A stretch of 64,000 bases of DNA, taken from the NCBI GenBank assembly GCA_030428885.1, contig JAUIEJ010000005.1, forward strand, positions 62,001 to 126,000. The letters are read 5' to 3'. This document shows, in pieces, positions 10,323-57,288 of this stretch. The position numbers and the translations under genes are program-made. The notes beneath the pieces are model-generated. The model saw only the letters and a program-made list of their open reading frames with translations. It was not told where the DNA came from and did not search any database. Source of the stretch: Gemmatimonadota bacterium. Lineage in GTDB: Bacteria; Gemmatimonadota; Gemmatimonadetes; Longimicrobiales; Gaopeijiaceae. Numbering within the stretch: the first letter of the stretch is position 1; every line of letters begins with the position of its first letter.

Positions 10323-11436
10323 GCGTCGAGCTCCTTCCGGAAGACCCGGGTGGCGAGGCCCAGTCCCAGGACCGCGAACGCCGCCATGAACACCGCCTGG
10401 GGCCAGAGCACGTCCAGGCCCACGCCCTTGAGGAAGATGCCCCGGGTCACCGTCACGAAATACCGCGCGGGGATCAGGTAGGTGACGGCCCGGAGCACCG
10501 GGGGCATGGAGGCGATGTCGAAGAGGAACCCCGACAGGAGGACCGCCGGCAGATAGGTGGCCACCATGGCGATCTGGGTGGCGAGCACCTGCGACTTCAC
10601 CGCCGCCGAGATGAAGATGCCCAGACCCAGGGCGCCGGTGAGGAAGAGCAGGGTGAGGACGGCGAGCTCCACCACGTTGCCGTTGAGGGGAGTGCCGAAG
10701 AGGACCATGCCCGCCACCACCGTCACCGCCACGTCGAAGAGACCGATGGCCAGGTACGGGAGCAGCTTGCCCACCACCACTTCCAGCCGACTCACCGGGG
10801 TCGAGGCCAGTTGCTCCATGGTGCCCCGCTCCCATTCCCGGGCGATGGTGAGGGCCGTGAGCATGGCGGCGATGATGGACATGATCACGGCGATGAGGCC
10901 GGGTACGATCATGTTCCGGGAGGCCAGGGTCGGGTTGTACCAGACTCGGGTCTCGGCGTCCACCGGCAGGTCGACGGTCCGCCCCCGCAGCACCGCGGTG
11001 CGGGCGAAGCGACCTACGATGGCGTCGGCGTAGTTGAGGGCGATGGTGGCGGTGTTGGCGTCGCTCCCGTCGACGAGCATCTGGAGTTCGGCCGTGCGCC
11101 CCCCCGAGAGGTCGGCGGTGAACCCAGAGGGAACGATGAGGATGCCCTTCACCTGTCCCCGGGTCAGGAGCTGGTCGGCGTCCCGCTCCGAGGCCGGGGT
11201 GTGGGTGATGCGGAAGAGGCCGCTGGCCTCCAGGGCCTCGGTGAGCTGTCGGGCCGTGGGCGTGCGGTCGTGGTCCACCAGGGCCAGGCCGATGTCGTCC
11301 ACGTCCCAGGTGATGGCGTAGCCGAAGAAGACCAGGAGAATCAGGGGAAGCACGAAGGCCAGGATCATGCTCCGGGGATCCCGGCGAAGCTGGATCCACT
11401 CCTTGCGGGCCATGGCCCGGAGGCGAGTGAGGCGCA

Positions 11437-23031: not shown

Positions 23032-25668
23032 TCACTCGCTCCTCAGGGCCACCATGGGATCCACCCGGGTGGCCCGCAGGGCGGGCACCAGACTCGCCGC
23101 CACTCCCACGGCCACGATGACCGCCACCACGCCGGCGAAGACGAGGGGATCCCGGGGGTCGACCTGGTACATGAGGATCCCCACCACCCGGGACACACCC
23201 CAGGCCAGGACGAGGCCGATGAGGAGTCCCACCACCACCTGGAGCGCCCCCTGGCGAAGGATCAGGGACCGCACCTCCCGGCCCCCGGCGCCCAGGGCCA
23301 TGCGGATGCCCATCTCCTGGGTGCGGCGACTCACGCTGAACGACAGCACGCCGTAGAGCCCCACCGACGCCATGAAGAGGGCCGCCAGGCCGAAGACCAC
23401 GAACACCGACCCGAACACCGAATAGAACCACGACGCCTCCCAGACCGCCCGATCGGCGGTCTGGACGTCGTAGAGGGGGAGGTTGGGGTCGATCTCCCGC
23501 ACCACCCGGCGGAGATCCGGGGCCAGCGTCTCGGGTGCACCGGAGGATGCGCGGACGAGGAAGGTGAGGAACGCCGGGTCCATCTGGCGCAGGGGGCGGT
23601 AGAAGCCGTACGGCGCGGACGACGGCGAGCCCGTGGGTTGGAACCCCTGCATGTTCAGGTCGTCCACGACCCCGACGACGGTGATCCACGGGACCGAGTC
23701 GGCCACGCCGCCTCGGAACCGTCGGCCCACCGCCGAACCGTCGGGCCAGAATTCCTCGACGAACGAACGGTTCACGATGGCCACGGGCGGGGCGTCGGCG
23801 TCGTGGGCATCGGTGAACCCTTCACCCTCGAGGAGCGATTCGCCCAGAAAGGCGAAGAACCCCGGCGTCACGTAGTCGACGTGGCTCCGAGGGCGGTCCG
23901 ACGGCTCGGGATACTCCCGCCCCTCGAGTCGGATGAACGTGCCCGAGGAGTTGGTCCCGGGGACCGTGTTGGCCAGGGCCACGCCGGAGACGCCGGGGAG
24001 GGCGAGCATGCGCCGCTCGGCTTCCTCGAAGAACCGCTGCCGGTCTTCCCGGGTCGGGTAGTCGACCTGAACGAGCCCCACCCGGGCGGTGAGCATCCCC
24101 TCGGTGTCGTAGGGCAACTCGTAGCGGGCGAGCTGCACCATGCTCCTGGTCATGAGGCCCGCGCCCACCAGGAGGGCCACCGAGAGAGCCACCTCCACGG
24201 TGACCAGGGCCCGGCTGAGGCGTCCCATGTGGAGGCTCGACGAGCCCCGGGATTCGTCTTTCAGGATCGTGTTGACGTCGGCCCGGGAGACCTGGAGCGC
24301 CGGCGCGATCCCCGCCACCAGGGCCGTGAATCCCGTCACCCCCACCACCCAGAGAAGCACGGGGAGGTCGACCTTGAACTCCATGAAGTAGGGGCGGCCG
24401 GTGAGGGGAGTGGCGGTGGCCTGGTCGAAGAGGTGCACCGCCACGTACGCCAATCCCGTGCCCAGGAGGGCGCCGGCGGCGGCCAGCACCAGGGACTCGG
24501 CCAGGAACGGGACGATGACCCGGGTTCGCCCGGCGCCCAGGGCGACGCGAACCCCCGCCTCCCGCATGCGGGTGGCGGCTCGAGCCAGGAGGAGGTTGGC
24601 CACGTTGGCGCAGGCCACCAGCAGGACGAACAGCACCGCCACCATCATGGCCGTGAAGAGCACCGCCAGTTCGTCGCCGTTCTGGGACTCGGAGACGGTG
24701 ACGAGGCGCGCCGTGAGTCCCTCGTTCTCGTCGGGATGCTCGGCTTCGAAGCGGGCGGCCAGACGGGCCACGTCGGCCCCGGCCCGGTCCCTGTCCACGC
24801 CCTCGGCCAGTCGGCCCATCACCTGATAGAATCGTCCCTCCCGCCGGACTTCGTTGTGGGGGTCGTCGTCCATGGTGATCCAGACGTCGTGGTTCGACGG
24901 CCAGCGAAAGCCCTCGGGCATCACCCCCACCACCGTACCCTGGCGGCCGTTCACCCGCACCAGGCTCCCGAGCACCCCGGGGTCACCGTCGTATCGGTCG
25001 CGCCACACTCCGTGGCCCAGGATCACCGCCGGGGACGAGTCCGGGGCGTCCTCCCCTTCCACGAACCCCCGACCCAGGGCGGGCTGGAGTCCCAGGACGT
25101 CGAAGGCGTTGGCCGTGACCCACAGGCCCTGCAATCGCACCGGCTCGTCGTCGTCGGCGAGATTGACGGTGCCCCCGTAGTAGCCCGCCAACCCATCGAA
25201 CGAGCGGGACTGCTCCCGGAAGTCGAGATAGTCGGCGCTGGAGACCCCCACCTCGTCGCCCGACTCGGTCTGGATGCTCTGGAGCACCACGAGGCGGTGG
25301 GGGTCGGGTACGTCGAGAGAGCGGAAGAACACCCCGTAGACGAGGCTGAACATGAAGGTGGAGAGGCCGATGCCCAGGGCCAGGATGAGCACCGAGATCA
25401 CGGCGGACCCGGGTTGGCGAGCGAGGGATCGGATGCCGCGGCGGAGGTCCTTCACGACGGTGTCCATGAGGGTGTCCCCGAGGTAGGGCCCGGCGATGGC
25501 CAGGGCGTGGATCCAGTAGCGGGCGCGGGGAAAGGGGTGGCCGTCCCGGCACCATTGGGCGAACTCTTCCCGGGCGTCGCCGACGATGCTGCGTCCCACC
25601 GTCCCGGCGGGAAGGCAGGCGGCGAGCCATCGCTCGGCGAGGCGGGGTGGAGCGGGGGGGCGCCTCAC
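23032..25668 (-). CDS. ADOP-type MacB/FtsX permease (module 2)
   Basis: About 878 residues from a GTG overlapping the padR stop by 4 bp; the upstream part of the open frame is padR read out of frame. N-terminal soluble helix bundle (AERWLAACLPAGTVGRSIVGDAREEF), first membrane helix (AVISVLILALGIGLSTFMF), MacB-like periplasmic domain, FtsX core near 340 (ACANVANLLLARAATRMRE), second periplasmic domain and FtsX core from about 752, ending VDPMVALRSE. No ATPase is encoded nearby. Substrate unknown. Confidence 0.88.
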   Translation of the reverse strand: MRRPPAPPRLAERWLAACLPAGTVGRSIVGDAREEFAQWCRDGHPFPRARYWIHALAIAGPYLGDTLMDTVVKDLRRGIRSLARQPGSAVISVLILALGIGLSTFMFSLVYGVFFRSLDVPDPHRLVVLQSIQTESGDEVGVSSADYLDFREQSRSFDGLAGYYGGTVNLADDDEPVRLQGLWVTANAFDVLGLQPALGRGFVEGEDAPDSSPAVILGHGVWRDRYDGDPGVLGSLVRVNGRQGTVVGVMPEGFRWPSNHDVWITMDDDPHNEVRREGRFYQVMGRLAEGVDRDRAGADVARLAARFEAEHPDENEGLTARLVTVSESQNGDELAVLFTAMMVAVLFVLLVACANVANLLLARAATRMREAGVRVALGAGRTRVIVPFLAESLVLAAAGALLGTGLAYVAVHLFDQATATPLTGRPYFMEFKVDLPVLLWVVGVTGFTALVAGIAPALQVSRADVNTILKDESRGSSSLHMGRLSRALVTVEVALSVALLVGAGLMTRSMVQLARYELPYDTEGMLTARVGLVQVDYPTREDRQRFFEEAERRMLALPGVSGVALANTVPGTNSSGTFIRLEGREYPEPSDRPRSHVDYVTPGFFAFLGESLLEGEGFTDAHDADAPPVAIVNRSFVEEFWPDGSAVGRRFRGGVADSVPWITVVGVVDDLNMQGFQPTGSPSSAPYGFYRPLRQMDPAFLTFLVRASSGAPETLAPDLRRVVREIDPNLPLYDVQTADRAVWEASWFYSVFGSVFVVFGLAALFMASVGLYGVLSFSVSRRTQEMGIRMALGAGGREVRSLILRQGALQVVVGLLIGLVLAWGVSRVVGILMYQVDPRDPLVFAGVVAVIVAVGVAASLVPALRATRVDPMVALRSE

Positions 25669-25994
25669 CCGCGGAACACCGGGTCGAGCCCGTCCCAGAG
25701 GCGCTCCAGGGCCTCCCGGGACGTGCGCAACACCTCCACCCCCTCGGGGGTGACCCGGAATCTCCGGCGGGGATGCCCACCCCGGTCCGGGCCCGTGGCC
25801 TCCCGGGTCCAGGCCACCCATCCCTTCGATTCCATGCGATCCAGGGTCTTGTAGAGGGCCCCCCGGGAGAGACTTCGCTGTGCCTTCCGGTCCAGTTCCC
25901 GGAGGATCGGGAGGGCGAACGCCTCGTCACGCAGGCGGAGGACGGCGAGGAGGATCATCTGCTCCAACTCACCGGGAAAGTGTCCGGGGGCCAT
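25665..25994 (-). CDS. PadR-family transcriptional regulator (module 2)
   Basis: 109 residues from the ATG at 25994, chosen because a good GGAGAGG ribosome site lies 6 nt upstream and because the longer reading would encode the promoter repeats. Winged helix: EQMILLAVLRLRDEAFALPIL, SRGALYKTLDRMESKGWV, RRRFRVTPEGVEVL. It should repress its own operon with the ADOP permease, using the repeats just upstream. Confidence 0.88.
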   Translation of the reverse strand: MAPGHFPGELEQMILLAVLRLRDEAFALPILRELDRKAQRSLSRGALYKTLDRMESKGWVAWTREATGPDRGGHPRRRFRVTPEGVEVLRTSREALERLWDGLDPVFRG

Positions 25995-26093: not shown

Positions 26094-27308
26094 CTACCCG
26101 GCCACGATGTGGAGGTGGGCGGCGATGTGTTCGGCCATGCGACGGGTGGTGGCCAGGTCGGGGTGACGAACCACAACGAGGCCGTCGCCCACCAGCACCT
26201 GGCGCCAATCCCGGCGTCCGGATCCGATGGGGTTCAGGTCGATCTCCACGATGTGGGGACCGAACTCGGTGAGGATCGCCTCGAGTCCCTCGTAGCGCTG
26301 GATGCGCCCGTGGCCCCGGGCCCGCTTGTAGATCCAGGCGGCGTTGTACTTCCGCTCCACCACCTGGCTGAACCGCCCGTGGACCACACACTCGGCCCAC
26401 CCCGTGTAGGTGTCGATGTCCGAGGCGTAGTTGATGAGGTCGACGAGTCCCGCCCCGGGCGAGCGGGCCCCGATCTCGCCGAAGACCGCCTCGCCGGCGG
26501 GGGTGCGGTACCACTCCATGTGGGTGTAGCCCGTCTGGAATCCCAGGGCCTTCAGCACCTGGAAACCCATCTCCCGCCCCGCCGCGAGTTCGGGCCGATC
26601 CGGGTCGCGGTACACGAGGGTGATGGGGCTCACCCACTCGTTCTCCTTCATGAAGAGCGCCCGGGGGATGTAGGTCGAGATGTTGTAGTGCTGCACCTCG
26701 CCGTTCACGCAGAGGGTGTCGAAGGTCATGTCCTCGCCCTCCACGAACTCCTCGACGCTCACCTCGGTCACCGAACGGAGCGCCGGCAGGATTCCGTCGA
26801 GCTCGTCCCGGGACCGCACCTTGTACGTGCTTTCCGAACCGGCCCCGGCGATGGGCTTCACGATGACCGGATACCCGATGGTCTCGGCGGCCTCGATCAC
26901 CCCGGCCGCGGTGGTGGCGCTGTAGTGGTGGGGCGTGCGAATCCCCGCCGCGTCCAGCACCCGCTTCATGACTTCTTTGTCCCGGTACGGAATCGTGGCC
27001 TGGACCGTGAGCCCCGGCAGGCCCAGGCGCTCCCGGATCCGGGCCGCCAGGATCATGTAGGGCTCCCAGAGGCACTCCACCCGGTGGATGGGCACCCGCT
27101 GGGCGAAGTTGGCCACCTGCTCCACGATGGCGGCGTCGTCGCCGAAGGCCACGTGGAGGTGGGCCGACAACGCCTCGGCCGCCGGACCCGGAAGCCGCTC
27201 CCGGGGCTGATCGCCCAAACCGATCACGGTGGCGCCCTGGGCCGCGAGCCCCCGGGTGAAGAACTGCATCTCCCGTGGGAATCCCGGCGAGATCATGAGG
27301 ACGTTCAC
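26094..27308 (-). CDS. ATP-grasp ligase A
   Basis: 404 residues from a GTG. A Rossmann-like pre-ATP-grasp domain (MNVLMISPGFPREMQFFTRG) is followed by the ATP-grasp core: YPVIVKPIAGAGSES (ATP Lys near 151), VEEFVEGEDMTFD, and the metal/phosphate segment FGEIGARSPGAG near 276-288. A C-terminal VVVRHPD tail is shared with two other ligases of this cluster. ATP-grasp enzymes join a carboxylate to an amine, thiol or hydroxyl through an acyl phosphate. Second gene of a two-ligase minus-strand transcript, 43 bp after ligase B. Substrate unknown. Confidence 0.85.
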   Translation of the reverse strand: MNVLMISPGFPREMQFFTRGLAAQGATVIGLGDQPRERLPGPAAEALSAHLHVAFGDDAAIVEQVANFAQRVPIHRVECLWEPYMILAARIRERLGLPGLTVQATIPYRDKEVMKRVLDAAGIRTPHHYSATTAAGVIEAAETIGYPVIVKPIAGAGSESTYKVRSRDELDGILPALRSVTEVSVEEFVEGEDMTFDTLCVNGEVQHYNISTYIPRALFMKENEWVSPITLVYRDPDRPELAAGREMGFQVLKALGFQTGYTHMEWYRTPAGEAVFGEIGARSPGAGLVDLINYASDIDTYTGWAECVVHGRFSQVVERKYNAAWIYKRARGHGRIQRYEGLEAILTEFGPHIVEIDLNPIGSGRRDWRQVLVGDGLVVVRHPDLATTRRMAEHIAAHLHIVAG

Positions 27309-27351
27309 TGTGCGGTGCTCCGTGGGAACGGCGGGAAAGGGGAACCGGGGG

Positions 27352-28572
27352 TCAACCGAGCTCGACCCGCAGGCGGGTCACCAGCGTCCAGAGGGCTTCC
27401 TTCACCACGTCGGTGTCGGGGTGCCGCACGATGACGAAGCCGTCGCCTTCGTAGGCGCCCGAGGTCTTCTGCCCCGGCCGGGGCAGGCGCGACTCCACGA
27501 CCAGGTCGCCCAGGTCGGCCGCCACCGCCTGGAGCCCTTCGACCCCGCGGATCGTGCCCTCGCCCTGGGGGCGGAGGTAGGCGGCGCCTGCGGCGTAGGG
27601 GCGCTCCCGGGGCTCGAATCGGCCGAACACCATGGCCCGGGCCCAGGCGGCGAAGAGGTCGAAGTCGTGGGCCCAGGAGATGAGGTGCATGAAGCGGGCG
27701 CCGGGGGGCCGGGCACCCACCTCCGAGATGGCCACCGAGCCGTCGGGCCGCCGGAACCACTCCATGTGGCTGAGCCCCCGATCCATGCCCAGGGCCTTCA
27801 GGGCGGGGCCCGCGGCGGCACGGATCCCCGCGTACGCCGGATCGTGGGCCTCCCGGGGCAGGAGCACGCACCACTGGATCCACGGCTCCCGCACCACCTC
27901 CAGGGCCGACGGGAAGTAGTGGTTGATGGAGTGCCAGACCATCTGGCCGTCGAGGGTCATGGAGTCGAACGAGTGTTCGTCGCCCACGACGAACTCCTCC
28001 AGGAGAAGCGGGCGCTCCGGGGTGGGGGGCATCTGGGCCAGGAGATGGGCGAGTTCCACGCCGCTGGAGATCCGGAACGTGCCCCGGGAGCCCGAGCCCG
28101 CCGGGGGTTTGGCGATGAGTGGGTATCCCACCTCGCCGGCGAACACCCCGGCCTCCACGTCGCGGGTGGCGAGGCGGTGTCGGGCGCAGGGAAGTCCGTG
28201 GGCCCGGAGCACGTCCTTCATGCGGGACTTGTCCCGGAAGTTCTCCGCCGTGGCCGCGCCCATGCCCGGGAGTCCCAGATGATCCCGCACCTGCCCCAGG
28301 GGCACCTGGAGCTCCTCGAAGGTGCCCAGGAGCTGGTCCACCGCCTGCCCCCGTCGCCGAAGGGTGCCCACCGCCCCGGCGATCTGGCCGGCGTCGAGTC
28401 CGTCGGCCACCTGCACGTGGTCGGCGAGACGCCCCCGCAGGCCCTCGGGCATCCGGTCGGACGGATCCTGGCTGATGACGCTGGTGCGCACGCCCTCCAG
28501 CCGCGACAGCGCGGAAATGAACCGGAGGGTGGTCTCGGCGAAGAACGGGGCGACGAAGGTGACGTCGGGCAT
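27352..28572 (-). CDS. ATP-grasp ligase B
   Basis: 406 residues, ATG start. Parallel in layout to ligase A: N-terminal Rossmann-like domain (MPDVTFVAPFFAETTLRF), RDKSRMKDVLRAHGLP, YPLIAKPPAGSGSRGTF, LEEFVVGDEHSFDSM, HMEWFRRPDG, ISEVGARPPGA, and VIVRHPD near the end. A and B are paralogs, not copies; identity is confined to the motifs and scaffold, so each probably attaches a different building block. Divergent from the AMP-forming ligase gene over about 116 bp, likely a shared regulatory region. Confidence 0.85.
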   Translation of the reverse strand: MPDVTFVAPFFAETTLRFISALSRLEGVRTSVISQDPSDRMPEGLRGRLADHVQVADGLDAGQIAGAVGTLRRRGQAVDQLLGTFEELQVPLGQVRDHLGLPGMGAATAENFRDKSRMKDVLRAHGLPCARHRLATRDVEAGVFAGEVGYPLIAKPPAGSGSRGTFRISSGVELAHLLAQMPPTPERPLLLEEFVVGDEHSFDSMTLDGQMVWHSINHYFPSALEVVREPWIQWCVLLPREAHDPAYAGIRAAAGPALKALGMDRGLSHMEWFRRPDGSVAISEVGARPPGARFMHLISWAHDFDLFAAWARAMVFGRFEPRERPYAAGAAYLRPQGEGTIRGVEGLQAVAADLGDLVVESRLPRPGQKTSGAYEGDGFVIVRHPDTDVVKEALWTLVTRLRVELG

Positions 28573-28688
28573 GCACGAACCTACGGCGCCGGGCCGTCGC
28601 CGGACACCGGATCCTTGTCCACGACCCGGTTGGGGCCGACCGTGCCCCTCGTCGCCCCTCGGTCGTGTCCCCCGTCCCGGATTCCCAG

Positions 28689-30260
28689 ATGCTGAATCTC
28701 GCCACCCTGCTCGAAGAGACCGCCCGCCGGCATCCGGACCGCGTGGCGGTGGTCTTCGGCGATACGCGCACCACCTACCGGGAGCTGGACGGGGCCGCCG
28801 CCCGAGTCGCGGGCGGTCTGGTGTCCATGGGCGTGAAGCCGGGAGATCGTGTAGCGCTGAGCTGCCCGAACCTGCCGTGGTTTCCCGTGGTCTACTACGG
28901 AATCCTGAAGGCGGGCGCCGTGGTGGTACCGCTGAACGTACTCCTCAAGGGGCGGGAGATCGGCGAGCACCTCCGGGACTGCGGGGCCGGCGTGTACGTG
29001 GGCTTCGAGGGCACCGACGCCCTTCCCATGGGGCGGTTCGGGTCCGAGGGGTTCGCGACCGCTCCCCATTGCCGACACCGGGTGGTGATCACCGCCGACC
29101 CCGCGGCGCCCTCGCCCTACGAGGGCGCCTCGACGCTGGGCGCTCTCATGGCGGGGGCCCCCGAGACGTTCGACACCGTGGACACCGGGGCCGACGACAC
29201 GGCGGTGGTGCTCTATACCAGCGGCACCACGGGGGTGCCGAAGGGCGCCGAGCTGACCCACTCCAACATGGTCCTCAACGCCCGCCTGGCCGACAACCAG
29301 CTCTTCAACCTCCAGGAGCACGACCGGTATCTGGTGGCCCTGCCCCTCTTCCACTCGTTCGGCCAGACGGTGCTGATGAACATGGGGTTCTACACGGGCG
29401 CGACCCTGACCCTCATGGCCCGCTTCGACGCCGGCCACGCGCTGGAGCTCATGGAGCGCCACGGGATCACCTTCTTCGCCGGCGTTCCCACCATGTACTG
29501 GGCGCTCCTCAACCACCCCGCCCTGGCGTCGTTCGATCTGGCGTCCATCGCCCGCACCCTGACGTCCACGGTGTCGGGAGGCGCGGCCATGCCGGTGGAA
29601 CTCATGCGGGCGTTCAACGAGCGGTTCGCCGTGAAGATCCTGGAGGGGTACGGTCTGTCCGAGACCAGTCCCGTGGCGACCTTCAACCACTTTCCCCGGC
29701 CCGTGAAGGCCGGAACCGTGGGCCAGCCCGTCTGGGGCACCGGCGTGCGGGTGGCCGATCCCGAGACGGGGGCGCCGCGGGGGCCCGGCGAGACGGGCGA
29801 GATCCTCCTGAAGGGGCACCACGTCATGAAGGGCTACCTGGGGCGTCCCGACGAGACGGCGGCGGCCATGCGGGGCGACTGGTTCCGCACCGGAGACGTG
29901 GGCCAACTCGACGGCGACGGCTACCTGACCATCACCGACCGGGTCAAGGACGTGGTGATCCGGGGCGGCTTCAACGTGTATCCCCGGGAGGTGGAAGAGG
30001 TGTTCATGACCCACCCGGCGGTGAGCCTGGTGGCGGTCATCGGCGTGCCCCACGACGCCCTGGGCGAGGAAGTGGAGGCGTACGTGATCCTCGCCGACGG
30101 CCACGCGCCCGCCCCCGACGAGCTCGTGGCGTGGGGGCGTGAGCAACTGGCCGCCCACAAGTACCCGCGGCGGGTGGAGATCGTCGAGTCCCTGCCCATG
30201 ACGGCCACGGGAAAGATCCTGAAACGGGAACTCCGGGCCCGCCGGGCGGCCGAAGGGTAG
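28689..30260 (+). CDS. AMP-forming acyl-CoA ligase (ANL superfamily)
   Basis: About 523 residues from the ATG at 28689; a GTG at 28665 would add eight residues. The P-loop motif VVLYTSGTTGVPKGAELTH, GYGLSETSPV, the TGD segment WFRTGDVG and the C-terminal Lys in PMTATGKILKREL are all intact. It activates a carboxylic acid as its adenylate and normally transfers it to CoA, resembling medium/long-chain fatty acid CoA ligases. Its divergent position next to ATP-grasp ligases B and A makes acyl activation for the same pathway possible but unproven. Confidence 0.88.
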   Translation: MLNLATLLEETARRHPDRVAVVFGDTRTTYRELDGAAARVAGGLVSMGVKPGDRVALSCPNLPWFPVVYYGILKAGAVVVPLNVLLKGREIGEHLRDCGAGVYVGFEGTDALPMGRFGSEGFATAPHCRHRVVITADPAAPSPYEGASTLGALMAGAPETFDTVDTGADDTAVVLYTSGTTGVPKGAELTHSNMVLNARLADNQLFNLQEHDRYLVALPLFHSFGQTVLMNMGFYTGATLTLMARFDAGHALELMERHGITFFAGVPTMYWALLNHPALASFDLASIARTLTSTVSGGAAMPVELMRAFNERFAVKILEGYGLSETSPVATFNHFPRPVKAGTVGQPVWGTGVRVADPETGAPRGPGETGEILLKGHHVMKGYLGRPDETAAAMRGDWFRTGDVGQLDGDGYLTITDRVKDVVIRGGFNVYPREVEEVFMTHPAVSLVAVIGVPHDALGEEVEAYVILADGHAPAPDELVAWGREQLAAHKYPRRVEIVESLPMTATGKILKRELRARRAAEG

Positions 30261-30306
30261 GGCCTCCACCCGGCGCCCCTTGTGGCGGCCGCTCCCGACA
30301 CCCTTA

Positions 30307-30324
30307 TTACGAAGATTGTCGTAA
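30307..30324. promoter_or_regulatory. Inverted repeat before the beta-propeller gene
   Basis: TTACGA and TCGTAA are perfect 6-bp arms around a 6-bp spacer, about 20 bp before the ATG at 30344. Position and symmetry suit a repressor dimer. BlaI/MecI-type repressors use sites of similar build, but none is encoded in the window. Confidence 0.5.
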
Positions 30325-30343
30325 CTCGGGGTCCGGAGGGGAC

Positions 30344-31504
30344 ATGGGGCGGACGAAGGGCAGCGGCCGGCGGCCGATCGAGTCGTGGGCGGTGACGGCG
30401 GGACTGGTTCTGGCCACTGCAGCGGTGGGCCCCGCGCCGGGATTCGGCCAGGACCGGAGGGTCGTGGCCGACGCCGACGCCCGGGCTCCCGAGGGCCTGA
30501 TCCACGTGTTCGACGTGGGCGAACTGCCCGACGGGCGGGTTGTCGTCACCGATTCCCGCGAGCCGGCGATTCTCGTGTGGGACCCCGCGGCGGGCACCCT
30601 CGAGCGCATCGGTCGGGAGGGGCAGGGGCCGCGGGAGTACCTGGGCGCGTTCAGCCTCGTGCCGACGGCCGACGGCGGATTCGGCGTCTACGATGCCCGC
30701 CAGGCTCGGCTCACCATCGTGTCCGCCGACGGGGCGGTGACGGGAGTCGAGTCGTTCGTGCGGCCGCCCACCAGCGGCCTGGCGCCCCCCCGGGGCGGCG
30801 GCACCGACGGCCGGGGCCTCATCGCCCTCCGGAGCGTCGACCCCGACCGGGGGCTGCGCCGGGCGTCCGTCGTCTATCGATGGAATCTGGCCACGGGCGA
30901 GGCCGACTCCCTGGGGGTGGTCATGACCTACGCCCGGGGCCAGGAGGGGCGGGGCATCACGCCCATGCCCCGGGGCGACGCCTGGACGGCTGGGCCCGAC
31001 GGGTCGTGGGCCCGCATCGTGGCCGACGACTACCACGTGGAGTGGACGGGGGGCGCCCGGGGCGACGTCGTGGGGCGTCCCATTCCCCACGAGCCCCGCG
31101 CCCCCACCGACGCCGATCGCGACGCGTGGGTCCGTCAGATGCTGGCCCGCTCGCCGGCCTCGGTCTCCTTCGGCGGCGAGGGAGGGGGAGGCGTGTCGGA
31201 TGCGGCCGTACGCCGGTACCGAACCGAGCTCGACGCCGACCGGTACCCGGACCGGCTGCCCCTCTTCGAGCCCGACTTCGTGCCGTCGTCGCCCCGGGGC
31301 GAGATCTGGCTCCAGCGCCTCGACCTCTCCGACGACACCCGCACCGTCTTCGACGTCATCGATCGCATGGGCCGACGCACCGGCCAGCGAGAGGTCCCGG
31401 GTCGGGCCCGGGTTGTGGGATTCGGGGCCGAAGCCGTCTATCTGGTCCGCATCGACGACGTCGACCTGGAGTGGCTGGAGCGGGTCCCCCTCGACGCGGG
31501 CTGA
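30344..31504 (+). CDS. 6-bladed beta-propeller protein, secreted
   Basis: 386 residues. A hydrophobic signal (AVTAGLVLATAAVGPAPGFG) is followed by repeated propeller blades; the diagnostic first blade reads VWDPAAGTLERIGREGQGPREYLG. The last blade contains IWLQRLDLSDDTRTVFDVID. Such proteins are abundant in Gemmatimonadota and act in the periplasm or at the surface, usually in unknown binding roles. It precedes the ligase-esterase operon by 82 bp in the same direction and could be co-regulated, but a separate promoter palindrome lies upstream. Confidence 0.75.
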   Translation: MGRTKGSGRRPIESWAVTAGLVLATAAVGPAPGFGQDRRVVADADARAPEGLIHVFDVGELPDGRVVVTDSREPAILVWDPAAGTLERIGREGQGPREYLGAFSLVPTADGGFGVYDARQARLTIVSADGAVTGVESFVRPPTSGLAPPRGGGTDGRGLIALRSVDPDRGLRRASVVYRWNLATGEADSLGVVMTYARGQEGRGITPMPRGDAWTAGPDGSWARIVADDYHVEWTGGARGDVVGRPIPHEPRAPTDADRDAWVRQMLARSPASVSFGGEGGGGVSDAAVRRYRTELDADRYPDRLPLFEPDFVPSSPRGEIWLQRLDLSDDTRTVFDVIDRMGRRTGQREVPGRARVVGFGAEAVYLVRIDDVDLEWLERVPLDAG

Positions 31505-31586
31505 GGCCCGCGCCCCTCGCGGCACCGCGGCGAACGCCTACATTCGGGGCACCCGGCATCCGGTCTCCTCCCGCCCCCCCTTCGCC

Positions 31587-32810
31587 ATGCACGTCGTCTT
31601 CATCGAGCCGTCGTTTCCCGCGAATCAGAAGCAGTTCGTGCGGGGACTCCGCCAGGCCGGGGCCGAGGTCACGGGGATCGGGGAGCGGCCGAAGGAGTCC
31701 CTGGACGACGACGTGAAGCGCTGGCTCCTGCACTACGAACAGGTGCCCACGGTGGTGGACGCGGGGCGCCTCGTCGACACCGTGCGGTGGATCGCCTCGA
31801 AGAAGCCCGTGGACCGCCTGGAGACGACGGTCGAAGCCCACGTCCTCGCCGCAGCCCAGGCCCGGGAGACGCTGGGAATTCCCGGGACGTCGGTCCGCAC
31901 GGCCTGGCTCTGCCGCGACAAGCCGGCCATGAAGGACGTGCTCCGGGAGGGCGGGGTGGCCACGGCGGCGTCCATGGGGAGCGGCTCGGTGGACGAGATC
32001 GTGGCCTTCGCCCACACCGTGGGCTACCCCCTCATCGTGAAGCCCCGCTCCGGAGCCGGGGCCTCCGGGACGGAGCGGGTGGACTCCGACGACGCCCTCC
32101 GGGGGGCGTTGGAACGGGCCGGAGTGGGGCGGGGCGGCGACGTGGCGGTGGAGGAATTCGTGGAGGGCCACGAGGGGTTCTACGACACCATCTCCATCGG
32201 CGGGCGCGTGGCCCACGACTTCGTGAGCCACTACTACCCCAACGTTCTCGAAGCCATGCGCACCCGGTGGATCTCGCCCCAGATCGTCACGACCAACCGG
32301 GTGGACTCGGCGTCCGACTACCAGGAGGTCCGGGCCCTGGGCCAGCGGGTGAACGACCTGCTGGGGATCGGGACCAGCGCCACCCACATGGAGTGGTTCT
32401 TCGGTCCCAAGGGACTGCGCTTCAGCGAGGTGGGGTGCCGGCCCCCGGGCGTGCGCACCTGGGACCTCTACTCGGCCGCCAACGACGTGGACCTCTACGA
32501 GGAGTGGGCCCTGGCGGTGCTCTACGGACGCACCGGCCGGCCCCTCTCCCGCTCCCACGCCGCGGGTCTGGTGGCGCTGCGTCCCGATCGCGACGGGCGC
32601 ATCACCCACTGCGAGGGCCTGGACGAGGTGCATCGCCGGTTCGGTCGTTGGGTCATCGACGCCCACATTCCCCCGGGCGGCACGCCCACCCAGCCCGTGG
32701 AGGGCGGCTTCATGGCCAACGCCTGGATTCGCATGCGGCATCCCGACTACGACGAGTTGCGTTCCATGCTGAGCACCATCGGCGAGATCGCCCAGTTGAG
32801 GGCCGAATGA
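31587..32810 (+). CDS. ATP-grasp ligase C (first gene of the core operon)
   Basis: About 407 residues from the ATG at 31587; the longer frame upstream is the beta-propeller gene read out of frame. Third paralog of ligases A and B: MHVVFIEPSFPANQKQFVRG, CRDKPAMKDVLREGGV, YPLIVKPRSGAGASG, VEEFVEGHEGFYDT, HMEWFFGPKG, FSEVGCRPPGV and IRMRHPD near the end. ATP-dependent carboxylate ligase; the acceptor is unknown. The next gene starts within its stop codon (ATGA), so synthesis of the two proteins is coupled. Confidence 0.85.
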   Translation: MHVVFIEPSFPANQKQFVRGLRQAGAEVTGIGERPKESLDDDVKRWLLHYEQVPTVVDAGRLVDTVRWIASKKPVDRLETTVEAHVLAAAQARETLGIPGTSVRTAWLCRDKPAMKDVLREGGVATAASMGSGSVDEIVAFAHTVGYPLIVKPRSGAGASGTERVDSDDALRGALERAGVGRGGDVAVEEFVEGHEGFYDTISIGGRVAHDFVSHYYPNVLEAMRTRWISPQIVTTNRVDSASDYQEVRALGQRVNDLLGIGTSATHMEWFFGPKGLRFSEVGCRPPGVRTWDLYSAANDVDLYEEWALAVLYGRTGRPLSRSHAAGLVALRPDRDGRITHCEGLDEVHRRFGRWVIDAHIPPGGTPTQPVEGGFMANAWIRMRHPDYDELRSMLSTIGEIAQLRAE

Positions 32811-33733
32811 GCGTCGTGCTCCTGGGACCCCTGGACGACCGCTCCCTCGTGGGGGTCGAAGTGGCCCGGCTCCGAGGAGCCGGGCGGGTGGGTCTCATCA
32901 CCGCCGGGTGGCAGGAGTGGGAGGACCAGGATCACTGGCTGCGGGAGGCGGTGGGGGGCGCCGTGGTGAACCTCGAACTCTACCGACGGGCCGAGACCGT
33001 TTGGGCCCACGACCGGGAGTTCGCCGAAGCCCACGCCGCCCTCCAGCACCGGGTGCGACTCCTGCGTCGGGCCTACAACGCCCGGCTCGAGCGGGCCATG
33101 GACGCGTGGATCGCCCTGGAGCGGTGGCACGGCGACGAGGGCGTCCTGGCGGACGAGCGGGAGGCGGCCCGGAGCGCCGTGGCCGATCTGGACCGGCACC
33201 ACCTGGACCGTATCGGCGAGTTCCGGGGCGAGTTCGACGCCCGCTGGCGTCCTACGGAGCGGGAGCTTGTGGCCCGGGAACGCCACGCGGTGGCGGGTCT
33301 GCTGGACGGCGTCGACGTGGTGGTGGTGGCCGGTGGCCACGTCCCTCTGCTGTTGAACCGCCTCCGCCTCTTCGACCTGGCCCCCCTTCTGGAGGGCCGG
33401 CACGTGGTGGCGTGGTCCGGCGGCGCCATGGCCCTGACGGAGCGGATCGTGCTCTTCCACGACTCGCCCCCCTGGGGCCCGGGCCACGCCGAAGTGGGCG
33501 AGGTGGGATTGGGCCGGGTGCCGGGCGTCGTGGCCCTTCCCGACGGCCGCCGCCGTCTGCGCCTGGACGATCCCGGGCGGGTGGGGCGCATGGCCCGACG
33601 GTTCGCGCCCGACGCCTGTCTGGTCCTGGATCCCGGCGCCCGGGCCGAGTGGTCCCGGAACGGGTGGAGCGTGGGCCAGGCTCTGCGCCTCGCGCCCGAC
33701 GGCGCGGTCGCGCCGGCGAGAGACGTGGCATGA
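32807..33733 (+). CDS. S51/class I amidotransferase-like protein
   Basis: 308 residues. An N-terminal strand-turn (MSVVLLGPLDDRSLVGVE), a charged helical insert (~70-165), then VVVVAGGHVPLLLNRL (residues 171-186, like the GGN turn of S51) and VAWSGGAMAL with a Ser204 at the nucleophile elbow, as in dipeptidase E/cyanophycinase. His218 in LFHDSP is a candidate partner. S51 enzymes cleave Asp-containing dipeptides or the ligase-made polymer cyanophycin, which makes its place between two ATP-grasp ligases notable. Assignment is from motifs only. Confidence 0.6.
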   Translation: MSVVLLGPLDDRSLVGVEVARLRGAGRVGLITAGWQEWEDQDHWLREAVGGAVVNLELYRRAETVWAHDREFAEAHAALQHRVRLLRRAYNARLERAMDAWIALERWHGDEGVLADEREAARSAVADLDRHHLDRIGEFRGEFDARWRPTERELVARERHAVAGLLDGVDVVVVAGGHVPLLLNRLRLFDLAPLLEGRHVVAWSGGAMALTERIVLFHDSPPWGPGHAEVGEVGLGRVPGVVALPDGRRRLRLDDPGRVGRMARRFAPDACLVLDPGARAEWSRNGWSVGQALRLAPDGAVAPARDVA

Positions 33734-34932
33734 GGTGGGTGCCCGAGGCTCCCGAGGCCACCGCCGGGACCCCACCCGACGTGGAGGGGTTGGCCATCGA
33801 GTCCCTGGTGCGGGCCGCCGCCGCGGGCGCGCCCCCCGACGGGGGCGCCGTGGACGCCTTTCTCGAGGGGCGCGACGTCCCCGTGGTGGAGGGCTCCCGG
33901 GTCACCTTCCTCTACCGGGGCACGGCCGACGACGTGCGGCTCCGGCATTGGGTGTACGGGCTTCCCACCGAGGGGTCCCTCCATCGCCTGCCGGGCACCG
34001 ACCTCTGGTACGACGTGCTGGACCTGCCCGAGGGATCCCGCATGGAGTACAAGTTCGAGGTGGTGCGGGGCCAGGACGTGGAGTGGATCCACGACCCCCT
34101 GAATCCGCACCTGGCCCGGGATCCGTTCGGAGCCAACTCGGTCTGTCACGGCGCGGGCTACTCCGTGCCCGAATGGACCCTCCCCGATCCCGCGGCGGCG
34201 AGGGGGTCCCTCGAAGATCGGGTGTTCCGCAGCCGGGCCCTGGGGGGGGCGCGCCGGGTCACGATCTACCGCCCGGCCCGCTTCCGGAAGACCCGGCGCT
34301 ACCCTCTGCTCCTGGTCCACGACGGGGGCGACTACCTGGCGTATGCGGGCCTCCAGACGGTGTTGGACAACCTGATCCACCGCCTCGAGATCCCGGGGCT
34401 GATCGCCGCCCTCATGCATCCGCCCGACCGAATGGAGCAGTACCGGGGCTCGGAGGCCCATTCCCGGTTCCTGGTGGAGGAGTTGATTCCCGATCTGGAG
34501 CGTTCTCTGCCGCTCCGGGGCACGCCGGCGAGCCGGTGCCTCATGGGGGCGAGCCTGGGAGCCGTGGCCACGCTCTCCACCGCGGTGCGGTATCCCCGGA
34601 CCTTCGGGCACCTGCTGCTGCAGTCGGGGTCGTTCGCCTTCAGCGACATCGGAGGCCACGGACGAGGCCCGGTGTTCGACCCCATCGCCGAGTTCGTCAA
34701 CGACTATCGGCGGTCCCCCGGAAAGGTGGCCGACAAGGTGTTCGTGAGCTGCGGCATGTACGAGTCCCTCATCTACGAAAACCGCTCGCTGGTGCCCGTG
34801 CTGGAGCGCACCGGCATGGACGTGCGGTTCGTGGAGGCGCGGGACGGGCACAACTGGGAAAACTGGCGGGACCGTCTCCGGGAGGGGCTGTCGTGGCTCC
34901 TGCCCGGCCCTCTCTGGCTGGTCTACGACTGA
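33730..34932 (+). CDS. Enterochelin-esterase-like (Fes-type) hydrolase
   Basis: 400 residues, ATG overlapping the previous stop. Residues ~55-140 form the CBM48/early-set domain seen in Fes (VTFLYRGTADDVRLRHWVYG). The catalytic part has HDGGDYL (197-203), the nucleophile elbow GASLGA with Ser275, and the His of DGHNWENW at 374. Fes enzymes hydrolyse ester bonds of siderophores such as enterobactin. No siderophore synthetase or TonB receptor is adjacent, so it more likely acts on the product of the ligases in the same operon. Confidence 0.8.
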   Translation: MRWVPEAPEATAGTPPDVEGLAIESLVRAAAAGAPPDGGAVDAFLEGRDVPVVEGSRVTFLYRGTADDVRLRHWVYGLPTEGSLHRLPGTDLWYDVLDLPEGSRMEYKFEVVRGQDVEWIHDPLNPHLARDPFGANSVCHGAGYSVPEWTLPDPAAARGSLEDRVFRSRALGGARRVTIYRPARFRKTRRYPLLLVHDGGDYLAYAGLQTVLDNLIHRLEIPGLIAALMHPPDRMEQYRGSEAHSRFLVEELIPDLERSLPLRGTPASRCLMGASLGAVATLSTAVRYPRTFGHLLLQSGSFAFSDIGGHGRGPVFDPIAEFVNDYRRSPGKVADKVFVSCGMYESLIYENRSLVPVLERTGMDVRFVEARDGHNWENWRDRLREGLSWLLPGPLWLVYD

Positions 34933-34949
34933 CGACTTCCGAGGACTCC

Positions 34950-36197
34950 ATGGCCGACGTGACGAAAACTATCGGGCTCTCCCTGGGCGCCGACATCTGC
35001 TGGCCCATCGCCTTCACCGAGATCCTGAAGCGCATGGATCTGGCGATTCCCGTGGGTGGCGACGAGGTGCGCTTCGAGGTGGAGCGCATGACCATCGACC
35101 CCTTCGACCTCCGGGAGCCGAAGAAGTACGACGTGGTGGTGGACCGCCTCACCCACTGGTATCACACGCGGCGGGAGTGGATCAAGAAGGCGGTCCTCAT
35201 CGACGACGTCTACGTGTTCAACAACCCGTGGTCGGTGCAGTCGGTGGAGAAACTTTCGGCCTACGCCGGCATGATTCGCCTGGGGTTCCCGATCCCCCGG
35301 ACGTGGCTCGTACCACCCCATTCCTACGAGCCCATGGACGACCTGGAGTACACCCTCCAGACCTACGCCCGGCACTTCGACCTCGGCGCCATCGGCCGGG
35401 ACCTGGGCTACCCCATGTACATCAAGCCCTACGACGGGGGTGGATGGCGCGCCGTGTCGCGGCTCGAAGACGAGGGGCAGCTCCGCTCCACCTACGATCA
35501 GAGCGGCAAACTGGTCATGACCCTGCAGGAAGCCATCGAGCCCTTCGATCACTTCGTACGCTGCATCGGTCTGGGTCCCCAGACCCATATCGTGCGCTAC
35601 GATCCAAAGGCGCCCCACCACGACCGCTACACCGAGACGCGCCCCGAGGAGTTCCTCTCGGACGACGACCGGAAGGTCATCGAAAGCACGACGCTGATCA
35701 TCAACGCGTTCTTCGGGTGGGACTTCAATTCGTGCGAGATGCTGCACCAGGAGGGCACCTGGTACCCCATCGACTTCGCCAACCCGTGCCCCGATTCCCA
35801 GGTGACCTCGACCCACTACCACTTCCCGTGGATCATCGAGGCCAACCTGCGCTGGGCCCTCTTCGCCGCCGCCACCGGCCGCACGGTGAAGCGCATCGAC
35901 TGGGACGCCTTCATCCGGAAGGTGGATCCGGAGATGACCCTGATGGAACGGATCGATATCTTGATGCCGGTGGTCCACGAGCGGTTCGACACCCCGGCGT
36001 TCGAGGACTTCTGCGCCGAGCATCTCTCCCATCTGCACGCCGTCACCCACGAGTGGTTCGGCACGGACGACGCTCGGGACGCCGTACGACGCAAAGTGGC
36101 CGCCGTCTTCCCTCCCCATGAAGTGGACGAGTTCACGGAGCTCTTCTTCTCCCGCGTGCAGCACTGGCGGGATCACAACCCGGTGGAGGAAGCGTGA
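34950..36197 (+). CDS. ATP-grasp ligase D (RimK/glutathione-synthetase-like)
   Basis: 415 residues from the ATG at 34950, 17 bp after the esterase gene. Not a close paralog of A-C: it starts MADVTKTIGLSLGADICWP, holds FNNPWSVQSVEKLSAYAGM (lid-type domain), YPMYIKPYDGGGWRAV for ATP binding, and ends with a helical domain after PIDFANPCPDS and STHYHFPW. The DFANPCPD stretch replaces the common EINPR metal motif. Probably ligates a small carboxylate to an amine. The downstream esterase overlaps its stop by 4 bp (GTGA). Confidence 0.78.
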   Translation: MADVTKTIGLSLGADICWPIAFTEILKRMDLAIPVGGDEVRFEVERMTIDPFDLREPKKYDVVVDRLTHWYHTRREWIKKAVLIDDVYVFNNPWSVQSVEKLSAYAGMIRLGFPIPRTWLVPPHSYEPMDDLEYTLQTYARHFDLGAIGRDLGYPMYIKPYDGGGWRAVSRLEDEGQLRSTYDQSGKLVMTLQEAIEPFDHFVRCIGLGPQTHIVRYDPKAPHHDRYTETRPEEFLSDDDRKVIESTTLIINAFFGWDFNSCEMLHQEGTWYPIDFANPCPDSQVTSTHYHFPWIIEANLRWALFAAATGRTVKRIDWDAFIRKVDPEMTLMERIDILMPVVHERFDTPAFEDFCAEHLSHLHAVTHEWFGTDDARDAVRRKVAAVFPPHEVDEFTELFFSRVQHWRDHNPVEEA

Positions 36198-36934
36198 AGC
36201 GACGCGAGACGTGGTATTCGGAACGGCTGGGCAGGGACGTCACCATGGCCCGATGGGGCGACTTCGGTGCGCCCTTCCTGATCTTCCCCACGGCCGGAGG
36301 CGACGCCGAGGAGATCGAGCGGTTCCACATCATCGGGACCCTGAAGCGGTCGGTGGAAGAGGGTCGCATCAAGATCTACTCCTGCGACAGCGTGGCCGGG
36401 CGGGCCATGCTCACCGAGGAAGGTTCGCCCCAGCACCGCATGTGGGTCATGAACCAGTACCAGGAGTACATCCGCCACGAAGTCGTTCCGGCGATCCGCA
36501 TGGACTGCGAATCCGACGACATCCCCGTGGTGGTGGGCGGCGCGTCCATCGGGGCCTTCCAGGCGCTGGCGGCGGTCTGCCGCTACCCGGACGTCTTCAC
36601 CAAGGCGCTCTGCATGAGCGGCACCTACGACCTGATCCGCTTCCTCGAGGCCGCGCCCAACCACGACTACCACCTGGCCTCGCCCCTGAACTTCGTGCCC
36701 GGCCTGGAGGGCCCCCACCTGGACCTGCTGCGGGAGCGCTTCGTCCTCCTGGCCTCGGGCGAGGGCGAAGCCGAAAACATCGGCCAGTCGTGGAACGTGG
36801 CCCGGGTGCTGGGCGACAAGGGCATCCCCAACCGCGTGGACTCCTGGGGCCCCGAGTGGAAGCACGACTGGCCCCTCTGGCGCAACATGGTGCTGGCGTA
36901 CCTGGACGAACTGTTCCCGGTGGTGCCGGGGTAG
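36194..36934 (+). CDS. Esterase D-like alpha/beta hydrolase
   Basis: 246 residues from a GTG inside the stop of ligase D. Compact alpha/beta hydrolase: FPTAGGDAEEIERF as the oxyanion turn, GGASIGAFQAL with nucleophile Ser118, and a late His in WKHDWPLW. No signal peptide. Esterase family members hydrolyse S-formylglutathione, siderophores or acyl esters. Last gene of the five-gene ligase-hydrolase operon; the 243 bp after it (36935-37177) hold only a GC-rich stretch followed by AT-richer DNA without a recognised element. Confidence 0.8.
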   Translation: MKRRETWYSERLGRDVTMARWGDFGAPFLIFPTAGGDAEEIERFHIIGTLKRSVEEGRIKIYSCDSVAGRAMLTEEGSPQHRMWVMNQYQEYIRHEVVPAIRMDCESDDIPVVVGGASIGAFQALAAVCRYPDVFTKALCMSGTYDLIRFLEAAPNHDYHLASPLNFVPGLEGPHLDLLRERFVLLASGEGEAENIGQSWNVARVLGDKGIPNRVDSWGPEWKHDWPLWRNMVLAYLDELFPVVPG

Positions 36935-37177: not shown

Positions 37178-38176
37178 TCACCCCGGGTCGGTGGAACGTC
37201 TTCGAGCGGCCGCCGACGGTGGGGACACCTCTCCGCGGGCGGGCCGCCCCTGCCCGCCTCGCCGCTCGCTCGCCCGGGCGAGGGCCTGAGCCACTTCGAC
37301 CACCGTCCGGATCGCCTCCTTCGTGATCTGGCGCCAGGTAGTGCGGATCACGATATAGCCGCGAGCTGAAAGCCAGGCGTCTTTCCGGCGATCTCCTTCG
37401 AAGCGTGCCCGGATGCCATGAGTGCCGAACCCGTCGACCTCCACAACAACGCGCTCCTCCGGCCAGAGGAAGTCGGCTTCGTAGGGACCTATGGAGACGT
37501 TGGCCGATGGCGCCGGGAGGCCCGCCTCGCGCACGAGTTGGAGGAACCGTGCCTCGGCTTCGGAACGGATGAGGGCGGGGCCGCCCTCGACTTGAAGGAC
37601 GGCGCGAAGCGCCGCCACGCCCGGGCGTCTCCGGTAGCGGAGGGGGAGGGCCCGGAGCGCCTCTTCGGAGATGTGGGCGTCTCGGCGAGCGCGGGACACC
37701 ATTCGTTCCACGTCGCGGAGGCCCAACAGGGCCGCAGCGTCCACCATCGTTCGTCCCGCCCCCGTCACCGGGAAGCCCATTCGTTTGCCACGCTCCGCCG
37801 GGTCGAGGGGGCGCGACTCGTGGATTCGGAGTCCTGCGCGGCTCCGTACCCGCACCCCTTCGACCACTAGGTGTACCGGCCCCTCGGGTGGTGAGGTCGG
37901 GTCGGTGCCGATCCACCCCCAGAGCCTGGCGGCGCTGAGATGACTCAGGTGGGCGGCGGGCCCGGCCGCGAGCACGGCCCCCGCCGCCCACTCCAGAGGC
38001 GCGGCCACAGCGCCGATCCGATAGACGCCTCGATAGAGCCGCACCCATTCCCCCTCCTTCAGGCGACGTCCGACCTTCGCGGGGGTGAGGCCGGCCTCGA
38101 GGGCCTGGGCGCGGGTCGCGACGCCCCGTTGGGCGGCGGCGCGCGCGAAGAGGCGGGAGATGGGGGTCGCCGGCAT
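37178..38176 (-). CDS. AbiEi-like wHTH + DUF559 nuclease-fold fusion
   Basis: 332 residues from the ATG at 38176 (GGGAGG upstream). The N-terminal ~95 residues match the AbiEi-type winged helix (ISRLFARAAAQRGVATRAQALEAGLT, WVRLYRGVYRIG). The C-terminal part has the DUF559/Vsr-like nuclease features: ERVVVEVDGFGTHG with Glu/Asp, a DRRKDAWLSARGYIVIRTTW block. The tail is Arg/Pro-rich. The AbiEi antitoxin normally pairs with AbiEii, absent here. The protein may be a stand-alone DNA-binding nuclease of defence type. Confidence 0.75.
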   Translation of the reverse strand: MPATPISRLFARAAAQRGVATRAQALEAGLTPAKVGRRLKEGEWVRLYRGVYRIGAVAAPLEWAAGAVLAAGPAAHLSHLSAARLWGWIGTDPTSPPEGPVHLVVEGVRVRSRAGLRIHESRPLDPAERGKRMGFPVTGAGRTMVDAAALLGLRDVERMVSRARRDAHISEEALRALPLRYRRRPGVAALRAVLQVEGGPALIRSEAEARFLQLVREAGLPAPSANVSIGPYEADFLWPEERVVVEVDGFGTHGIRARFEGDRRKDAWLSARGYIVIRTTWRQITKEAIRTVVEVAQALARASERRGGQGRPARGEVSPPSAAARRRSTDPG

Positions 38177-38313
38177 TGTCCCTCCCATGAGGGGGGTCGG
38201 GGTGGGGACCTATGCTCCCTCGTCGCCTCGGGCTAGTCCATGGTGCAATGGGCCCGACACCGGAGCCGCCAGGCGGGGACCAGGGCACACCGCCGGGACC
38301 CTCCCCCCCGATC

Positions 38314-56652: not shown

Positions 56653-56880
56653 ATGGTACGCACGGTGACTCTACGGAAGATGGGTGGCTCCATCGGAGCG
56701 ACCCTTCCCAAGGACCTGGCGGAGCGGCTGCATCTCGATGCCGGGGACGAGGTGTTCGTGGTGGAGACTGAGCGAGGCCTCTTCATCACACCCTACGACC
56801 CCACGTTCGACGCGGCGATGGCGGCCTACCGTCGGGGTGCCAGGAAGTACAAGAACGCACTGCGCGAACTCGCCAAGTAA
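56653..56880 (+). CDS. AbrB/MazE-type antitoxin
   Basis: 75 residues. Swapped-hairpin AbrB domain (VTLRKMGGSIGATLPKDLAERLHLDAGDEVFVVE, read by motifs SIGATLPKDL and GDEVFVVE), then an Arg/Lys-rich C-terminus (YRRGARKYKNALREL) that would thread into the toxin. Binds DNA and neutralises the Doc protein; ends 9 bp before it. Confidence 0.88.
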   Translation: MVRTVTLRKMGGSIGATLPKDLAERLHLDAGDEVFVVETERGLFITPYDPTFDAAMAAYRRGARKYKNALRELAK

Positions 56881-56889
56881 GCCACGATC

Positions 56890-57288
56890 GTGTCGAACGA
56901 ACCGCTGTGGCTCGACCGCGGAATCGTGGAGGCCCTTCATGCAGACCAGATTGCCGAGCACGGAGGGAGTCTGGGACTCCGCGACGAGGCTCTGCTCGAG
57001 TCGGCCCTTTCGCGCGCCCCGCAACGAAGGCATTACGAACCGAGCTCCGACCTCGCGACCCTCGGCGCCGCCTACTGCTACGGGTTGGTGAAGAACCACC
57101 CGTTCGTGGACGGAAACAAGCGCGTGTCCCTCGTGACGATGTACACGTTTCTGGCACTTAACGGCCAGGACCTCGACGCACCGGAGCCCGAGGCCGTCAA
57201 CGTGATCGTGGGCGTGGCAGGGAGCACGATGACCGAAGACCAACTTGCCGATTGGATCCGTGCTCACCTCATCCCCTGGGTCGACTGA
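56890..57288 (+). CDS. doc: Doc-type Fic toxin
   Basis: 132 residues from a GTG. Carries the Doc motif HPFVDGNKR and the preceding YCYGLVKN helix. Doc kinases phosphorylate elongation factor EF-Tu (Lys in place of the second Gly of Fic), stopping translation. Paired with the AbrB-type antitoxin gene just upstream; this pairing replaces the more usual Phd. Convergent with the ADOP gene at 6 bp. Confidence 0.92.
   Translation: MSNEPLWLDRGIVEALHADQIAEHGGSLGLRDEALLESALSRAPQRRHYEPSSDLATLGAAYCYGLVKNHPFVDGNKRVSLVTMYTFLALNGQDLDAPEPEAVNVIVGVAGSTMTEDQLADWIRAHLIPWVD

Follow-up and report, generated by a model that had tools for sequence, protein, structure and literature searches.

What does a bacterium make with four ATP-grasp ligases, two esterases and a protein resembling a peptidase, all encoded side by side? 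The question is raised by a 64,000 nt stretch of DNA (hereafter the window) from a Gemmatimonadota bacterium of the Gaopeijiaceae (contig JAUIEJ010000005.1, positions 62,001–126,000). Its members are two ligase genes, A and B, on the minus strand and a coupled run of five genes on the plus strand, encoding ligase C, an S51-like protein, the esterase FES, the divergent ligase D and the esterase EST (Table 1). These seven are genuine genes that form a genuine cluster, and in relatives the cluster often shares an operon with the gene for the glycogen synthase GlgA. We favour, with a probability of roughly 45 %, a conserved and uncharacterized pathway in which A, B, C and the RimK-like ligase D join amino acids or carboxylates, in partnership with the synthesis of an alpha-glucan by the glycosyltransferase family 5 (GT5) glycogen synthase. 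The reading draws on the synteny of the seven genes, the monophyly of A, B and C, the kept catalytic residues, the link to GlgA through operons and co-occurrence, the other glg genes nearby and the resemblance of FES to CBM48-CE1 esterases, with weak matches to starch/glycogen modules.

A scan of 84,980 species genomes (GTDB) with gene D found 316 relatives, of which the best 80 were taken for locus comparison; these 80 lie in Gemmatimonadota, Myxococcota, Acidobacteriota, Planctomycetota, Pseudomonadota, Actinomycetota and Eisenbacteria. Of the loci whose flanks are long enough, most contain the run C-S51-FES-D-EST, as a rule with A and B close by, and tight spacing recurs across loci, the median being −4 bp both between S51 and FES and between D and EST. 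Gene order is kept across phyla, contrary to the possibility, raised in the initial annotation of the window, that the homologues would almost never occur together. The Actinomycetota loci seen are without the S51-like gene, and in Myxococcota A and B lie several kilobases from the C-to-EST run, in other orientations. Most carriers are metagenome-assembled genomes, in which single linkages could be assembly errors but a pattern repeated across phyla could not. An origin of the cluster in a plasmid or virus is rejected, as gene D matched none of 72,556 plasmids, and in viral contigs it had no relative that could be confirmed; an anti-phage defence system is likewise rejected, since a PADLOC-DB search with the seven proteins gave no match.

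The most frequent partner beyond these genes is glycogen synthase. When neighbouring genes were clustered without bias, GlgA ranked first among the non-core genes, with 43 loci, and a GCS2-CBS protein second, with 31. GlgA was near in 12/36 Gemmatimonadota, 22/34 Myxococcota, 3/5 Acidobacteriota, 1/5 Planctomycetota and 2/10 Pseudomonadota loci, counts that include many incomplete loci. In 23 loci the GlgA gene stands directly upstream of a ligase gene of the A/B/C family (mostly C), on the same strand and with a median gap of 6 bp; in four of these 23 the two genes overlap by 4 bp. Genes for GlgB, GlgC, alpha-glucan phosphorylase (GlgP) and GH57 proteins recur nearby as well. The neighbourhood of the cluster is larger than the window shows, as relatives add glycogen genes, more amidoligases and hydrolases. 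The glycogen link is invisible in the window because the glycogen synthase gene of that genome lies on another contig. The view that the window holds a real and conserved gene set stands, although glycogen synthase and the other glycogen genes had been missed when it was first formed.

GlgA was present in 39/41 D-carrying genomes. In the Myxococcota sample it was found in 45/45 genomes with gene D versus 54/96 without it (Fisher p 4e-9, shared ancestry ignored); the corresponding counts for Gemmatimonadota were 70/91 and 73/207 (Fisher p 2e-11, again ignoring shared ancestry), and in at least 38 Gemmatimonadota genomes GlgA lay no more than 20 kb from D. In a tree of 70 GlgA proteins, from which a reading-frame filter had left out six unlinked copies, 28 formed a clade with 100/100 support. 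Each of them comes from a genome with gene D, several phyla being represented, and 26 of the 28 corresponding genes lie inside the cluster loci examined. Outside this clade fell the second copies of such Myxococcota genomes (those included) and the sampled Myxococcota without D. The Gemmatimonadota copies, including that of the window's genome, formed another group in which linked and unlinked genes are mixed, and some carriers (L158–L160, L162 and L163) had all of their GlgA proteins outside the 28-member clade.

In a tree of 77 ligases, A, B and C formed three separate groups, each with 100/100 support and each spanning seven phyla (25 rows in lineage A), which argues for three ligases with distinct and long-kept roles; it had been conceivable that all would group with one known pathway enzyme, and they stay apart. 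The catalytic lysine K151, the Mg-binding glutamate pair and the substrate arginine (K151, E186/E187, E265, E278, R282) were invariant in the 77 A/B/C proteins, and the ATP-grasp catalytic residues were complete in 25/25 members of lineage A (K, E, E, R) and 25/25 of lineage B. The best PDB profile matches were 4wd3 (E 2e-33), 3vot (7e-29, covering profile positions 51–404 of 407) and 3wo1 (1e-23); the closest solved relatives are L-amino acid ligases, and from their sequences A, B and C are predicted to be ATP-grasp enzymes of this type. In ligase D, K159, E263, D275 and N278 were invariant in 101/101 homologues, and the NCBIfam matches to LysX/RimK are weak and below cut-off (rimK_fam 18.3 bits versus 143.4). 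Apparent fusions involving A (long proteins in L073, L076 and L093) were rejected, as they look like upstream start-codon choice by a simple gene caller.

Which genes of the window belong to the cluster? Re-reading the sequence bore out the nine genes named in the initial annotation with their coordinates, as well as the translational coupling claimed for the plus-strand run, in which C/S51, S51/FES and D/EST overlap by 4 bp each and a gap of 17 bp separates FES from D. Because homologues are kept in the same order across the genus, families and phyla, an origin as chance open reading frames in GC-rich DNA can be dismissed; NCBIfam gave a curated-level match for none of the seven core proteins. 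A genome of the same genus (G069, locus L039) has the seven genes in the order and orientation of the window, with about 83 % identity for most and 63 % for the S51-like protein, and another Gemmatimonadota family (L040–L042) has the same seven at about 60 % (S51-like protein, 43–50 %). Across other families and phyla identity is mostly 40–66 %, with gene order kept. In L039, gene D of G069, the closest relative with a complete chromosome, is read in two frames (9809–11149), reflecting either a sequencing error or decay.

The other two of the nine genes, encoding an acyl-CoA ligase and a secreted beta-propeller protein, had been counted with the cluster and do not belong to it. In most Gemmatimonadota relatives B and C are divergent neighbours, about 0.1–0.3 kb apart (L039, L040, L059, L064), and the clusters of L039 and L040–L042 contain neither gene. 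Since both are missing from between B and C in relatives, and the insertion at that same point in L058 is a different one (permease and PadR genes), we regard them as local passengers and reject them as members. The divergent B/C promoter region seems to be prone to insertion, as at 28665–31504 of the window and in L058.

Table 1. Features of the cluster and of the inserted genes, in window coordinates
Feature	Position	Strand	Basis
Ligase A, ATP-grasp, predicted L-amino-acid-ligase type, 404 aa, GTG start	26094-27308	-	Pfam ATP-grasp matches
Ligase B, ATP-grasp, predicted L-amino-acid-ligase type, 406 aa	27352-28572	-	weak Pfam matches to ATP-grasp and LAL_C2
Acyl-CoA ligase	28665/28689-30260	+	Pfam AMP-binding
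Secreted beta-propeller gene	30344-31504	+	
Ligase C, ATP-grasp, predicted L-amino-acid-ligase type, 407 aa	31587-32810	+	Pfam ATP-grasp
S51-like protein, 308 aa, modelled cyanophycinase/peptidase E fold	32807-33733	+	no Pfam match; AF2 model and Foldseek
FES, alpha/beta-hydrolase esterase with N-terminal E-set domain, 400 aa	33730-34932	+	PF00756
FES N-terminal E-set domain, intermediate in type between Fes N-domain and starch/glycogen-binding modules	33865-34170	+	domain profile matches
Ligase D, divergent ATP-grasp, distantly RimK/LysX-like, 415 aa	34950-36197	+	no Pfam match
EST, EstD-like PF00756 esterase, 246 aa, GTG start	36194-36934	+	PF00756 40.4 bits, cut-off 22

Residues of both esterases are fully conserved: S275, E345 and H374 of FES were all present in 44/44 homologues, and S118 and H224 of EST in 27/27. 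The AlphaFold2 (AF2) model of FES (pLDDT 92) has the two-domain fold of Fes with a serine triad, and in Foldseek the best E-values went to CBM48-CE1 esterases, the best whole-length TM-scores (about 0.7 to 3mga) to enterobactin esterases. Among 25 members, the N-terminal domain matched Enterochelin_N in 25/25, with the best scores, CBM_20 in 20/25 (best E 0.0035), CBM_48 in 14/25 (best E 7e-4) and AMPK1_CBM in 3/25, the last three all weakly. W74, K108, W119 and N136 of FES, aligned by eye with the glycogen contacts known for AMPK beta, were found in 38, 42, 32 and 44 of the 44 homologues. The S51-like protein has, in its AF2 model (pLDDT 94), the S51 fold with a long helical hairpin inserted at about residues 58–147; Foldseek matched it to 3en0, 7uqw and 6a4r with a probability of 1.0 and a TM-score to the target of up to 0.67. 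Its nucleophile serine, Ser204, is present in 35/48 homologues and is Ala, Cys, Gly or Thr in the other 13, so an active peptidase is rejected as a general claim, and the role of recycling peptidase that the protein had been given is not supported.

In other Gemmatimonadota families, a variant locus carries a shorter D (D′, about 32 % identical, without the C-terminal extension of about 90 residues found in ligase D) together with FES and EST homologues and often A and B. There C and S51 are replaced by three proteins: one weakly CP-ATP-grasp-like, one a GCS2 carboxylate-amine ligase of YbdK type and one of C26 gamma-glutamyl-hydrolase type. The shared core with exchangeable ligase–hydrolase modules suggests a single pathway whose amino-acid branches vary. 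In L046–L056 the variant has GH57 and GlgA genes as neighbours. In 30 loci the gene 3′ of EST (median gap 10 bp) encodes a GCS2-like ligase with fused CBS domains, which suggest adenylate-sensing control. Loci with this gene fall within L066–L131 (Myxococcota and a few others), often with an AstE-like hydrolase alongside. The GCS2 ligase of relatives was not found in the genome of the window, in a search run without a positive control.

These data are consistent with a model in which the pathway very probably works together with alpha-glucan metabolism and its product is probably derived from amino acids; physical attachment of the product to the glucan can be proposed only tentatively. In the version that we prefer, the ligases would use ATP to assemble a small group consisting of an amino acid or peptide, probably of Glu/Asp type in view of the GCS2, C26, AstE and formylglutamate-hydrolase-like partners in relatives. 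This group may decorate, cap or prime the alpha-glucan, while FES (via its starch-binding-like N-domain) and EST might transfer or remove the ester-linked group, and the S51-like protein would bind the peptide part with no hydrolysis. Taken to its full extent, the model would describe an amino-acyl- or peptidyl-modified glycogen in at least seven phyla, the group being built by A–D on or for a glucan from a dedicated glycogen synthase and added or stripped, as an ester, by FES and EST; we consider this version speculative and rather unlikely. The general frame of the initial annotation, in which ligases and hydrolases lead to a peptide-like or ester-linked product, is still the best one.

Several observations weigh against a glucan-linked pathway. 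FES gives weak starch-binding matches, outscored by the enterochelin N-domain, and the FES of the D′ variant seems to be without an N-domain, its matches starting at about residue 154 or later. The Fisher tests carry no correction for shared ancestry. GlgA is present but unlinked in the genome and genus of the window, Actinomycetota loci carry the genes with no glg gene nearby, and some D-carriers, such as family f3 and two of the 41 genomes, have no strict GlgA match.

The alternative that fares best is a free small molecule (an oligopeptide, compatible solute or signal) that the ligases make and whose only tie to carbon storage is co-regulation, in which case GlgA would respond to the same nutrient state, or the GT5 enzyme would add one glucose to the small molecule. 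L-amino acid ligases, the closest solved relatives of A, B and C, are known for dipeptides, the set contains no conserved transporter or secretion gene, and GlgA is unlinked in some lineages. However, the repeated tight coupling of GlgA to a ligase, the GlgA lineage confined to carriers in this sample and the other glg genes exceed what shared regulation would need, and FES resembles carbohydrate esterases. We judge a free molecule to be somewhat unlikely, a free metabolite or single glucosylation being nearly as likely as attachment to the glucan.

A further alternative is that A-B and C-S51-FES-D-EST are independent neighbouring modules and only the second constitutes one pathway, as the distance and orientation of A and B in Myxococcota might imply; A and B nevertheless stay close to the other genes in most phyla whose loci have enough flank, and they also accompany the D′ variant, and we find this improbable. 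Less probable still is a cyanophycin-like nitrogen–carbon reserve polymer that the ligases would build and for which the S51-like protein would serve as cyanophycinase, glycogen being the companion reserve. The fold of that protein is closest to cyanophycinase and glycogen is likewise a reserve, but Pfam and NCBIfam revealed no cyanophycin synthetase with a Mur-ligase half in the set, whose ligases, of 404–415 aa, are single ATP-grasp proteins, the cyanophycinase serine is replaced in 13/48 homologues, and the two esterases would be left unexplained. A siderophore-type pathway, in which FES would be a ferric-siderophore esterase in keeping with its match to enterobactin esterase in sequence and fold, is very improbable and is rejected on gene context, as FES scores 96.5 bits against a Fes equivalog cut-off of 222 (NF007758) and its recurrent neighbours are glycogen enzymes and include no siderophore synthesis or iron-uptake gene.

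The window holds other genes of note. Adjoining EST, at 37178–38188 on the minus strand, is a gene for an AbiEi-type antitoxin-like protein with a DUF559 nuclease-like C-terminus, and L039 and L057 have a 45–53 % identical relative in the corresponding position. A small antitoxin-like gene followed by a Doc/Fic-like gene at 56680–57288 (plus strand) appears by eye to be a toxin–antitoxin pair. Four long genes, at 23032–25821, 41962–44535 and 57295–60045 on the minus strand and 5114–7765 on the plus strand, each lie beside a PadR-like regulator gene; the first encodes, by eye, an ADOP-type MacB-like permease. In L058, two such long-gene/PadR pairs surround ligase C to EST.

We know of no pathway with this gene set. 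The literature that was searched, which did not extend to the 2009 amidoligase survey by Iyer and colleagues, contained no description of it, and the parts of PMC8939145 and PMC4431377 reached by keyword do not mention the cluster. The enzymes belong to known superfamilies, and no pathway was found for their combination. Bacterial glycogen is usually regarded as an unmodified polymer of glucose, and its priming in the absence of glycogenin is not yet completely understood. An operon of this kind, widespread and coupling a glycogen synthase with four ligases and two esterases, would mean either a modified glycogen or a new glucan-dependent metabolite; a modified glycogen, if true, would represent a storage or primer polymer of a new class. 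The pathway would also give a function to two groups that have no Pfam family, ligase D and the S51-like protein.

Each component can be set beside a known system. Ligases A, B and C share fold family, length and catalytic residues with the L-amino acid ligases (RizA/BL00235/BacD), but here three paralogous lineages are kept with esterases and a fourth ligase and are linked to glycogen synthase, and the BacD equivalog is not matched (ligase A 36 bits, cut-off 850). Ligase D has the ATP-grasp core and the E/D/N metal residues of the RimK/LysX family, yet it falls below the family cut-off and is without a Pfam match. With Fes and the CBM48-CE1 feruloyl/acetyl-xylan esterases, FES shares an E-set N-domain and an esterase domain with a serine triad; it differs from Fes in scoring under the equivalog cut-off, and from both in that its neighbours are glycogen enzymes rather than siderophore or xylan genes. 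The S51-like protein has the modelled fold of cyanophycinase and peptidase E (MEROPS S51), from which it is set apart by the extra helical hairpin and the non-conserved nucleophile serine. The amidoligase neighbourhoods of Iyer and colleagues reportedly bring ATP-grasp or GCS2 ligases together with peptidases, and this theme of ligase and peptidase is one that they have in common with the cluster described here.

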